NCBI GenBank assembly: GCA_903862845.1
Contig: CAIOZS010000050.1
Span: 1 to 37,344, forward strand
DNA: 37,344 bases
Origin: an uncultured Thermoleophilia bacterium
GTDB lineage: Bacteria > Actinomycetota > Thermoleophilia > UBA2241
Direction of reading: 5' to 3'
This document shows, piece by piece, positions 23,049 through 35,494 of the stretch. Every line of letters starts with the position of its first letter. The stretch's first letter is position 1. The notes beneath the pieces are model-generated. The model did not search any database. It was given only the letters and a program-made list of their open reading frames with translations, and had not been told where the DNA came from. The translations under genes were made by a program, and so were the position numbers.

Positions 23049-23167
23049 CGCTGCCGATTATGCCATCGACAGGTTCGCGACACGAACGCCGGGCGGGCTC
23101 CTACCCTGCAGGCCCGCCTCTTGGTATGGTCCGTCTCGACATGCCGTCGACGACACGAGGAGCGGGA

Positions 23168-24841
23168 ATGGACCCGACCAGGAAAGACGCGAGCCTGCCG
23201 GACTACGCGCTCGTCGAGCGCCGCGAGATGCTTCGCGGCATGGGCGACGGCGAGGAGACGCTCGCGCGGATCCAGGTCGGCGTGGTCAGTAGCTGGGGCG
23301 AGCTGAACCCAGCCGCTGCGCACCTCGACAGGGTGTCGCAGGCTGTGAAGGCGGGCGTGTGGGCGGCCGGCGGCACGCCGCGCGAGCTCGTCGTGAGCTC
23401 TCTGTGCACCAGCCTCGCCGGCGACGACCGCTACCTTCTGCCGTACCGGGACGTGGTCGCCGCCTACATCGAGACTATGGCTCGGGCGAGCCTCCTCGAC
23501 GCCCTGGTGCTGGTCCCGGTCTGCGACGACGTGATCCCCGCCCACCTCATGGCCGCGGCGCGGCTCGACCTGCCGGCCGTTGTGGTGACCGGCGGCTACA
23601 TGCGGCTCAACCGCTGGCGCGGCGCGCCGGTGGATCCGCTGCAGGTGGCCGCCGGCCATTTCGTGGATCACCAGGAGGGGCGCATCGACGCCGCCGAGCT
23701 CGCCGAGATCGTCGACCGCGGCTGTCCGGGCGGCGGCGCCTGCCCGGTCATGGGCACGGCCAACACGATGGCCGCGCTGGCCGAGGCGCTCGGCATGTCG
23801 CTGCCCGGCAACGCCGCGACGCCGGGCGCGGACTCGCGCCTGCTGCGCCTGGCTTTTCGGGCCGGACAGCAGGTCGTCGCGCTGCACCAACGCGGCGTGA
23901 CGCCGGCGCGAATCCTCACGCCGGAGGCGTTCGAGAACGCCATCCGCGTGCTCATGGCGGTGGGCGGCTCCACCAACGGCGTGCTGCATCTTCAGGCGGT
24001 GGCGGCCGAGCTCGGCCTCGCGCTCGAGCCCGAGCTCTTCAACCGCCTGAATGCCGGCACGCCGCTGATCTGCGACGTCGCCCCGTCGGGCTCCGGCACG
24101 CACTTCATGGCCGAGCTCGACGAGGCAGGCGGCGTGCAGGCGGTCATGAAGGAGCTCGAGCCGCTGCTGCACACGCAGGCGCTCACGGTCACAGGGGAGG
24201 AGCTGGGGCGGAGCCTCGCGGTCGCGCGGGTGCGCGACCGCGGCATCATCCGCCCGCTGGCCGACCCGCTGGCGCCCGAAGGCGGTCTGCGCTTCCTGCG
24301 CGGCTCACTGGCGCCGAGGGGCGCTCTCGTCAAGTCGTCGGCGGTGCCCGCCGCCATGCAGCGGCACCGCGGGCCGGCGCGTCTGTTTGCCCGCGAGGAG
24401 GATGCCGTCGACGCCCTCGCCGGCGGCCTGCTCGCGCCCGGCGACGTGGTCGTGCTGCGCTACGCGGGCCCGCGCGGCGACCCGGGCATGCGCCTGCAGC
24501 AGCGCTTTCTGTGGCAGCTCGCGGCGCGCGGGCTGCACGACCGCATCGCCTTCGTCACCGACGGGCGCATCAGCGGCACCAACAAGGGGTGCGCGGTCAC
24601 GCACGTGGCGCCGGAGGCGGCGGCCGGCGGACCCCTGGCGCTCGTGGAAGAGGGTGACCGCATCGCCGTCGACATCCCGGCCGGCACGCTGGAGCTCGAG
24701 GTGCCGGCCGCTGAGCTGCGCCGGCGCCGGGACGCCTGGCGGCCGCCGGCGCCGCAGACTCCCGGCGGCTGGCTCAGCGTGTACGCGCGCCTCGCGCGCT
24801 CGGCCGACGCCGGCGCCGCTCTGGACTACGGAGCCGAGTAG
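23168..24841 (+). CDS. IlvD/Edd-superfamily dehydratase with non-canonical active site
   Basis: A 557-residue cytosolic protein along the whole IlvD/Edd fold: VGVVSSWGELNPAAAHL, then PVCDDVIPAHLMAAARLDLP, GACPVMGTANTM, and near the C-terminus DGRISGTNKGCAVTHVAPEA and GDRIAVDIP. Two expected residues differ. The first Fe-S ligand Cys (TPCN in dihydroxy-acid dehydratase) is A49, and the carbamylated metal-binding Lys of CDK is D121. The other ligands C119 and C192 and the catalytic Ser (S469) are kept. The chemistry may therefore differ from ordinary sugar-acid or branched-chain dehydratases. The start at 23168 is supported by GAGGAG nine bases upstream. Convergent with a transporter/kinase operon. 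Confidence 0.85.
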   Translation: MDPTRKDASLPDYALVERREMLRGMGDGEETLARIQVGVVSSWGELNPAAAHLDRVSQAVKAGVWAAGGTPRELVVSSLCTSLAGDDRYLLPYRDVVAAYIETMARASLLDALVLVPVCDDVIPAHLMAAARLDLPAVVVTGGYMRLNRWRGAPVDPLQVAAGHFVDHQEGRIDAAELAEIVDRGCPGGGACPVMGTANTMAALAEALGMSLPGNAATPGADSRLLRLAFRAGQQVVALHQRGVTPARILTPEAFENAIRVLMAVGGSTNGVLHLQAVAAELGLALEPELFNRLNAGTPLICDVAPSGSGTHFMAELDEAGGVQAVMKELEPLLHTQALTVTGEELGRSLAVARVRDRGIIRPLADPLAPEGGLRFLRGSLAPRGALVKSSAVPAAMQRHRGPARLFAREEDAVDALAGGLLAPGDVVVLRYAGPRGDPGMRLQQRFLWQLAARGLHDRIAFVTDGRISGTNKGCAVTHVAPEAAAGGPLALVEEGDRIAVDIPAGTLELEVPAAELRRRRDAWRPPAPQTPGGWLSVYARLARSADAGAALDYGAE

Positions 24842-33243: not shown

Positions 33244-33269
33244 GTGCGGCGGCGCGCCGCCGCACTCAC
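33240..33269. terminator. 30-bp perfect palindrome containing both stop codons
   Basis: GTGAGTGCGGCGGCG followed at once by its exact complement. The TGA of the nitroreductase (33241-33243) and the stop of the convergent fusion gene (33266-33268) are symmetric parts of the palindrome, so one hairpin ends both genes with no spacer. Confidence 0.65.
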
Positions 33270-35494
33270 GCCCCTTCGACGCTCGCGAGCACGCGCTCGA
33301 AGCGCTCGAGGGCGTCGTCGATGACCTCGTCGGTGTCGGCCATCGAGGTGTACATGCGCGAGCCGGCGAGGGTGATCATGCCGCTCGCCGCGTAGGCCGC
33401 GCCCATCTCTTCCATCATGTGTTTGCGCGGCTTGAGCGCTTTGGCCAGGCGCAGCGGATGCTTGAGGTCGAGGAGCATCACGCCCGCGGTCTCGAGGTGC
33501 ACGATCGAGCCCTGGTTGTAGGCGACGAAGGGCAGGCGGTAGCGGCGGATGATGTCGTTGAGGCCGGCGGTGAGACGGTCGCCGGCGCGGCCGGCGATCA
33601 CCGGCGCGTTGGTGCGCTCCATCTCGGTGATCGCGAAGTAGCCGGCGGCGCAGCTCAGCGGGTTGGCGCTCAGGGTGCCGCCGATGTAGGCGCGCTCGCC
33701 GCTCTTGCCGCCGATGCCCGAGGCGAAGCTCAGCATCACGTCGCGGCGGCCGCCGACGCCGCCGGCCATCGGGTAGCCGCCGGTGATGCACTTGCCGAAG
33801 ACGGTGAGGTCGGGGCGCACGCCGAAGTAGCCCTGCGCCCCGCCCAGGCCGAGGCGAAAGCCGGTCACGACCTCGTCGAAGATCAGCAGGGCGCCGAACT
33901 CGTCGCAGAGCTCGCGCACGGCGGCGTTGAACCCAAAGGGCACCGGCCGCGTGCCGCTCTCCGGCCCGATGGGCTCGACGATCACGGCTGCCGTGCCGCC
34001 CAGAAGCTTGTTCTGCTGCAGCTTGCGGCGCAGGGCGGCGAGGTCGTTGGGGAAGACCTCGCGGGTGCGCGCCGTGGCGCCGAACGGGATGCCCTTGGCC
34101 TCAAAGCGCCAGGTGCCGGGCACGTGCAGCCCGTAGACCATCTGGTCGCTCCAGCCGTGGTAGGCGCCGCCGACCTTGATGACCCACTTCTTGCCCGTGT
34201 GGGTGCGCGCCGCGCGGATGGCGGCCATCACGCTCTCGGTGCCGGAGCCGAGCATGCGAAACATCTCGCAGGAAGGCATGAGGCGGTTGACCAGCTTCGC
34301 CAGCTTGAGCTCGTACTCATGGAAGAGGCCGGTGACGGGGCCGCAGGCGGCCACGACCTCAGCGACCTTCTCGCGCAGCGGCGCGTAGTTGCTGCCGAGC
34401 ACGGTCGGCCCGCCGGCCTGAAGGAAGTCGATGTACTGATTGCCGTCGACGTCCCAGAGGTACGCGCCCTCGGCCTTCTCGATGGCCAGCGGGAACGGGT
34501 AGTTGAAGGCGAGGTTGTGCTGCACGCCGCCGGGGATGAGCTCACTGGCTTCGTCGGTGAGCTCCTTGCTGCGGCGGCACTGCGTCGCGAAGTACTCGAG
34601 GTACCCGCCCATGACGTCGCGCCGCACCGGGCGCAGCGGTTGCGCGACCAGCGCCTCGAGGCGTGCGTAGACGGCCGGCACGTCCGGGTAGCGGCTGATG
34701 GCGTAGCCGGCGATCTGAGCGCCGTCCGCCGCCGTCGCGCCGCCGGCCTCGACCGATCCCGCGCCCTCCGCCTCGGCCGACCCTGCCTCGGCCGCCTCGG
34801 CCGCCTCCCGGGCCGCGCGCGCCTCATCGACCTGCTGCGCGAGCTTCTTCTCGTCGGCGCGCAGCTTGGCGAAGGCGATCTCGCGGATCGGCAGCGGCAC
34901 CTTGTCGGCGCGGCCGTCCGTCATCAGCGCGAGCAGATAGTCGAGGGCGCACTTCTCGAGCAGCGCCATGTTGTGCACGGCCTGCCCGGCGTCGCCGCCC
35001 AGCACGAGCACGCCGTGGTTGGCGAGGATGAACGCGTTGGCCCCGCTCGCCACCTTCTTCGCGACGCCCTTCTTGAGGAACGACGTGCCCGACGGAGCGT
35101 ACGGGACGATCTCGACGGCGCGGCCCAGGTACCGCACCTGCTCGTCGAACAGCGCGGGGATGGGCCGCTTCACGAGCGCAAGAGCGCTCGCGTAGGGCTG
35201 GTGCGTGTGGATGATGGCGTGCACGTCCGGGCGCTGCGCGTACACGGCCGCGTGCATTCCCGACTCGATCGACGCCTTCATGCCGCCGAGCAGCCGCCGG
35301 CCCTCGGCGTCGAGCACGCAGATGTCCCCCGGTTCCATCTTCGCGTAGTCGTAGCTCGACGGCGTGATCGCGAACGCCGCCTCGCCGGGCACGCGCACGG
35401 ACACGTTGCCCTCGGTGGCTTTGAGGTAGCCGCGCTCGAGCAGCGTGCGGCACATGGTGACGACCAGCTCTCGTGACGCGGCGAAGCGGCTCAC
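33266..35494 (-). CDS. Class II aldolase/adducin domain fused to class III aminotransferase
   Basis: A 742-residue two-domain protein. Residues 1-210 are a fuculose-phosphate-aldolase-type domain: TEGNVSVR, E77 in SIESGMHAAVY, HTHQPYASAL (H96, H98) and LANHGVLVLG (H160), all zinc or catalytic positions present. An Ala/Glu linker lies at about 212-255. Residues 290-742 are a class III PLP aminotransferase like glutamate-1-semialdehyde mutase: GSGTES (416-421), YHGW, D540 in FDEVVTGFRLG and the Schiff-base K568 in FGKCITGGYPMAGG. Both halves look active, so an aldehyde made by one could be aminated by the other. Start GTG 35494 follows GAGGT of the previous stop. Last gene of a three-gene operon. 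Confidence 0.88.
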   Translation of the reverse strand: MSRFAASRELVVTMCRTLLERGYLKATEGNVSVRVPGEAAFAITPSSYDYAKMEPGDICVLDAEGRRLLGGMKASIESGMHAAVYAQRPDVHAIIHTHQPYASALALVKRPIPALFDEQVRYLGRAVEIVPYAPSGTSFLKKGVAKKVASGANAFILANHGVLVLGGDAGQAVHNMALLEKCALDYLLALMTDGRADKVPLPIREIAFAKLRADEKKLAQQVDEARAAREAAEAAEAGSAEAEGAGSVEAGGATAADGAQIAGYAISRYPDVPAVYARLEALVAQPLRPVRRDVMGGYLEYFATQCRRSKELTDEASELIPGGVQHNLAFNYPFPLAIEKAEGAYLWDVDGNQYIDFLQAGGPTVLGSNYAPLREKVAEVVAACGPVTGLFHEYELKLAKLVNRLMPSCEMFRMLGSGTESVMAAIRAARTHTGKKWVIKVGGAYHGWSDQMVYGLHVPGTWRFEAKGIPFGATARTREVFPNDLAALRRKLQQNKLLGGTAAVIVEPIGPESGTRPVPFGFNAAVRELCDEFGALLIFDEVVTGFRLGLGGAQGYFGVRPDLTVFGKCITGGYPMAGGVGGRRDVMLSFASGIGGKSGERAYIGGTLSANPLSCAAGYFAITEMERTNAPVIAGRAGDRLTAGLNDIIRRYRLPFVAYNQGSIVHLETAGVMLLDLKHPLRLAKALKPRKHMMEEMGAAYAASGMITLAGSRMYTSMADTDEVIDDALERFERVLASVEGA

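Follow-up and report, generated by a model that had tools for sequence, protein, structure and literature searches.

An IlvD/Edd subfamily in which three of the four Mg2+ ligands of canonical dehydratases are replaced

Published work on the IlvD/Edd family regards the Cys-Asp-Lys (CDK) motif and a Mg2+ site with a carbamylated lysine as family-wide and considers the metal to be essential (PMC5770437, PMC9314677). The window analyzed here, a stretch of 37,344 nucleotides from an uncultured Thermoleophilia bacterium, encodes a homologue in which this motif reads Cys-Asp-Asp (CDD). A first-pass annotation of the DNA had pointed to the loss of two key positions, the first cluster cysteine (A49) and the carbamyl-lysine (D121), and had proposed a new subfamily using another metal site or another reaction. 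We asked whether this gene is a degraded copy, an artifact of alignment, or a member of a distinct group, and which chemistry its residues would permit.

Gene, fold and family assignment

The open reading frame was translated into 557 amino acids without an internal stop (Table 1). Position 23168 is taken as the start, because the N-termini of homologues agree with it and a GAGGAG sequence lies five bases upstream; the in-frame upstream ATG at 23060 is less likely. The protein matched both Pfam domains of the family, ILVD_EDD_N with 330 bits and ILV_EDD_C with 209 bits (cut-offs of 27 and 27.7, respectively). An AlphaFold2 model built from 40 sequences had a mean pLDDT of 94.2 and a pTM of 0.94; an earlier model, based on 15 sequences, had been of low quality around the active site. 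The predicted fold matched solved dehydratases over the full length, the best match being M. tuberculosis (Mtb) IlvD (6OVT, TM 0.93–0.94). By fold and homology, the window protein is a full-length member of the IlvD/Edd superfamily. It is not one by PROSITE motif 1 (CDK-x2-P-[GA]-x3-[GA], as quoted in PMC5770437), which was present in 29 of 30 CDK rows and in none of the 25 CDD rows.

None of the curated NCBIfam cut-offs for named dehydratases was reached, the best score being 531 bits. The protein remained below the cut-offs of the TIGR00110 IlvD equivalog (528 bits against 618), Edd (179 against 708), L-arabinonate dehydratase (407 against 882), and YjhG/YagF D-xylonate dehydratase (210 against 808). 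Its identity to canonical members (e.g., RlArDHT, Mtb IlvD, and the paralogue from its own genome) was 37–45%. This paralogue, one further IlvD/Edd member (L055), has CDG, CDK, and PGMPE, i.e., a complete canonical metal site.

Table 1. Positions of the gene and of its key residues in the window
Feature	Position	Strand	Basis
CDD-type IlvD/Edd homologue, coding sequence	23168..24841	+	557 aa plus stop
GAGGAG, ribosome-binding-site-like	23157..23162	+	sequence; five bases 5' of ATG
A49 codon, place of the [2Fe-2S]-type first Cys (TPCN)	23312..23314	+	alignments
C80 codon, putative Edd-type (CDG) third cluster Cys	23405..23407	+	alignments; role inferred from PMC5770437
T81 codon, replaces Mg2+ ligand Asp/Glu	23408..23410	+	alignments; PMC9314677
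C119-D120-D121 codons (family CDK motif): cluster Cys and Asp ligand kept, carbamyl-Lys replaced by Asp	23522..23530	+	alignments
C192 codon, cluster Cys kept	23741..23743	+	alignments
L443 codon, replaces Mg2+ ligand Glu of PGMxE	24494..24496	+	alignments
S469 codon, catalytic base Ser kept	24572..24574	+	alignments
C475 codon, invariant in the subfamily, nearly absent elsewhere	24590..24592	+	alignments

Mg2+ site and cluster residues

Residues were assigned by alignments against 6OVT, 8EJ0, 6NTE, and 9EVV (RlArDHT). These agreed with the first-pass annotation in placing A49 on the cysteine of TPCN and D121 on the lysine of CDK, with C119, C192, and the catalytic serine kept. Misalignment at A49 and D121 was rejected, since pairwise and multiple alignments gave the same result.

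The Mg2+ ligands of the family are Asp/Glu, Asp, carbamyl-Lys, and Glu (PMC5770437, PMC9543379, PMC9314677), the last residue belonging to the PGMxE motif 26–27 residues before the catalytic serine. According to published numbering and our alignments, the four positions are occupied in the window protein by T81, D120, D121, and L443. Position 81 was Thr in 22 of 22 subfamily rows vs. Asp or Glu in 29 of 29 canonical ones; position 121 was Asp in 23 of 23 vs. Lys in 30 of 30; position 443 was Leu in 23 of 23 vs. Glu in 30 of 30. With the filter used, only fifteen positions separated CDD from canonical rows so cleanly, and the three replaced ligands were among them. Three canonical enzymes became almost completely inactive when the first ligand, equivalent to T81, was replaced by Ala (PMC9314677). 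Judging by the residues compared, the site formed by Asp/Glu, Asp, carbamyl-Lys, and Glu would be missing from the window protein. The loss of the carbamyl-lysine had been recognized correctly but understated, as T81 and L443 were overlooked and three of the four ligands are in fact gone. C80 was considered as a direct stand-in for the metal-binding Asp and rejected: in the alignment, which has no gaps from E73 on, T81 pairs with Asp/Glu and C80 with the preceding residue, as in the CDG motif.

The missing cysteine of TPCN is a different matter. In earlier work, this residue was associated with [2Fe-2S] enzymes and the lack of it with [4Fe-4S] enzymes (PMC9543379); the Cys of the Cys-Asp-Gly motif was proposed as the alternative cluster ligand in Edd (PMC5770437). 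Position 49 was Ala or Gly in 22 of 22 subfamily rows, and the 30 Lys-bearing relatives had Gly (25), Cys (4), or Ala (1) there. Position 80 was Cys in every subfamily row covering it and in all other relatives lacking the Lys. Among the 30 canonical rows, 25 had Cys80; the five exceptions included the four that carry Cys49, and E. coli IlvD has neither residue. The window protein does not have the TPCN cysteine that defines the [2Fe-2S] DHAD/DHT class, and the combination of A49 with C80 is the arrangement of the [4Fe-4S]/Edd-type class. Because C80 occupies the CDG position, the simplest reading is an intact cluster of the Edd type. The absence of the first Cys, although assigned to the right residue, is not supported as a sign of an altered cluster; the replacement residue, C80, had escaped notice. 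The cluster cysteines, S469, and the DGR-x-SG loop in which it sits were invariant in the subfamily. A further cysteine, C475, lies six residues past S469 and shows the same invariance, being nearly absent from the rest of the family.

Together with IlvD (Mtb 6OVT, E. coli), the window protein has the full-length fold (TM 0.93 to 6OVT), both Pfam domains, C119, C192, D120, and the catalytic Ser; it differs in the three replaced Mg2+ ligands, in the score below the IlvD cut-off, in the presence of C80, and in the lack of the TPCN Cys of the Mtb enzyme. As in Edd, the putative third cluster Cys occupies the CDG position rather than TPCN, a placement associated with [4Fe-4S]; however, the Asp of CDG is Thr, CDK is CDD, identity is 29%, and the score is far below the Edd cut-off. 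L-arabinonate, D-xylonate, and galactonate dehydratases (5J84, 5OYN, 7M3K) have the fold and the SGT after the catalytic Ser in common with it, whereas in the L-arabinonate and D-xylonate enzymes the TPCN Cys is present and the Mg2+ site consists of Glu/Asp/Kcx/Glu. Homologues of the CDN, CDS, and CDE types resemble the CDD type in the replaced Lys, the kept C80, and the absent PROSITE motif 1. They differ from it in that the CDN type mostly keeps the Glu of PGMxE and has Gly at position 81, while in the CDE type Asp81 is retained and position 443 is Cys.

Distribution, phylogeny and gene neighborhood of the subfamily

Six peptide patterns were scanned against 84,980 species genomes and revealed about 20 CDD-type loci at 60–92% identity (L003–L022 and the fragment L042). 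Their hosts were Thermoleophilia and other Actinomycetota, Desulfobacterales and Syntrophobacteraceae (Desulfobacterota), Lysobacterales and other Gammaproteobacteria, and one Bacteroidetes MAG. Searches of whole genomes found the CDD type in 6 of 299 genomes of the class to which the window belongs. In a Desulfobacterales sample it occurred in 7 of 341 genomes, including one intermediate, and two of the seven were new; no new members were detected either in the order sample around L016 or in a Desulfobacterota sample of 395 genomes, where only the center genome had it. The subfamily is rare and patchy, widely scattered, and conserved.

Within the same 14 genomes, scores inside the subfamily were 995–1079 bits vs. 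less than 570 bits outside; later additions were two nearly identical rows (G1050) at 954 bits and one intermediate (G1187) at 668 bits. In the maximum-likelihood tree, the 22 CDD rows formed a monophyletic clade with a support of 100/100. This clade and the score gap support the proposal of a new subfamily. The intermediate L085 adjoined the clade (94/74), and a pair of the CDE type was its sister (100/98). The larger group lacking the Lys (CDN, CDS) was placed on a separate branch, so that the carbamyl-lysine may have been lost more than once in the family; the root and the long branches (Edd, YagF) of the tree are unsure.

The dN/dS values between the window gene and four near relatives were 0.13–0.24, which disfavors a decaying copy. 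Chance and a single degraded copy were rejected on these values and on the clade-wide occurrence of the residues (D121, and A or G at position 49). Single in-frame stops were seen in a CDD homologue (TAA; L059, 836-2503, and L006) and in a CDE homologue (TAG; G299:C1:3226072-3227676); both have intact relatives elsewhere, and either decay or an assembly error is possible.

Outside Actinomycetota, a GABA-transaminase-like gene was located within about 3.6 kb at 9 of 18 CDD loci, and the two such genes that were checked exceeded the TIGR00700 cut-off. A gene for aldehyde:ferredoxin oxidoreductase was found immediately upstream at 7 of these 18 loci, and one or both genes at 12. Succinate-semialdehyde-dehydrogenase-like genes (three loci), agmatinase-like genes (two), and MttB methyltransferases (two) also occurred there. 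At 18 canonical loci there was no oxidoreductase and one strong GABA-transaminase-like match; since the flanks were mostly shorter, the comparison is descriptive, without a statistical test. In the cultured Desulforhopalus singaporensis DSM 12130 (L015:6001-7650), the CDD gene was preceded by a TRAP carrier and an enoate-reductase-like flavoprotein. None of the Thermoleophilia loci had GABA-transaminase or aldehyde oxidoreductase genes adjoining the CDD gene. The immediate neighbors of the window gene, convergent with it, encode a galactonate-like MFS carrier and an FGGY kinase; they were rejected as a pathway because the arrangement is kept only within the genus.

Several other features of these regions were recorded. 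Two MttB-family genes, L079:12770-14293(-) and L076:1533-3017(+), were interrupted by an in-frame TAG at GG*GDSK, as is the case in pyrrolysine-containing trimethylamine methyltransferase; they lie in a run that also comprises the CDD dehydratase, GABA-transaminase-like, and aldehyde:ferredoxin oxidoreductase genes. A second homologue of D. singaporensis lacking the Lys has CDD, yet falls within the CDN group; its run (L044:2774-10492) also encodes a flavoprotein of the OYE type, an enolase-superfamily protein most similar to 2PS2/4MGG, and a DUF1638-hydantoinase fusion. Aconitase X genes adjoined IlvD/Edd members lacking the Lys at L025, L033, L048, L049, and L085:229-1458(-), with 30–33% identity to the L085 copy, thus bringing two Fe-S dehydratase families side by side. 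At L095:14722-15099(+) and L029, genes for an enamine deaminase of the RidA type and for a dihydroorotate-dehydrogenase-like Fer4 protein stood next to the CDE-type sister genes. In the window, a single ORF (33266-35494(-)) combines a class II aldolase domain with a class III aminotransferase, and the sister species also has an aminotransferase related to it near its dehydratase.

Putative function

We give about an even chance to the window protein being a working Mg2+-independent [4Fe-4S] hydro-lyase of a distinct IlvD/Edd subfamily. A [4Fe-4S]-type cluster would be held by C80, C119, and C192, and the canonical Mg2+ site would most probably be absent, with T81, D121, and L443 in place of three of its ligands. 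By analogy with the family mechanism, the beta-hydroxyl would leave after binding to the cluster iron, and S469 would abstract the alpha-proton. In canonical enzymes, two waters on Mg2+ are thought to be displaced by the carboxylate and C2-hydroxyl of the substrate (docking, PMC9314677; PMC5770437; PMC9543379). As the metal holds these groups there, the substrate in our case would not be a 2,3-dihydroxy acid bound via Mg2+. Of the two suggestions of the first-pass annotation, another reaction appears likely and another metal site possible.

Such a metal site could have been rebuilt for Fe2+, Mn2+, or Zn2+ from D120, D121, and H126 or other residues, the chemistry staying near that of the family. 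D120 is kept and D121 is acidic; H126 is invariant in the subfamily and also present in the CDE sister group and in L085, canonical members usually having Met. We nevertheless consider this rather unlikely: Thr and Leu at the other two ligands leave a poor site, the short Asp lacks the reach of carbamyl-Lys, and in the model H126 lies five residues further along a helix starting at 122. Lower still is the probability that the protein is an ordinary dehydratase of sugar acids or dihydroxy acids, with Mg2+ bound weakly or via waters and the substrate. The identity to canonical members and the sugar-type neighbors in the window agree with it, but these neighbors are not kept in the clade, the scores lie below every cut-off for named dehydratases, and canonical enzymes do not tolerate Ala at the position of T81 (PMC9314677). 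If the protein were a paralogue without catalytic activity, serving a structural or regulatory role, the loss of residues essential in relatives would be explained; this is very improbable, given the invariant cluster cysteines, S469, and DGR-x-SG loop, strong purifying selection, and the operon-like linkage to catabolic genes in several groups.

For the Mg2+-independent hydro-lyase, a nitrogen-bearing hydroxy acid is a tentative candidate substrate, suggested by residue chemistry and by the gene order at the 12 loci described above. The D120/D121 pair might take a positively charged group (amino, guanidino, or methylated-ammonium) at the spot vacated by the metal. Outside Actinomycetota, the enzyme might act with the GABA-transaminase-like enzyme and the aldehyde oxidoreductase to degrade a hydroxylated compound related to GABA or betaine. 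The scheme as a whole, in which a Mg2+-independent [4Fe-4S] hydro-lyase accepts the charge of an amino- or ammonium-bearing hydroxy acid in the metal pocket and works with these two enzymes in an undescribed pathway, is possible rather than probable; the MFS carrier and FGGY kinase next to the window gene would suit a sugar-type substrate and count against a nitrogenous one.

We found no paper on the CDD subfamily in the open-access literature, where most subscription journals are absent, and searches there on carbamylated-lysine loss, IlvD and carnitine, genome neighborhoods of the family, and the D. singaporensis dehydratase gave nothing relevant. By fold and homology, these proteins belong to a known superfamily, yet by their residues they fall outside its signature motif and metal-site definition. 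Two easily confused things are set apart here: the missing TPCN cysteine, which is common, and the lost metal site, which is uncommon. The clade also flags proteins that would be automatically annotated near dihydroxy-acid dehydratase but are probably doing something else. A natural, selected clade in which three of the four ligands are absent at once constitutes a built-in test of the role of the metal in the family.
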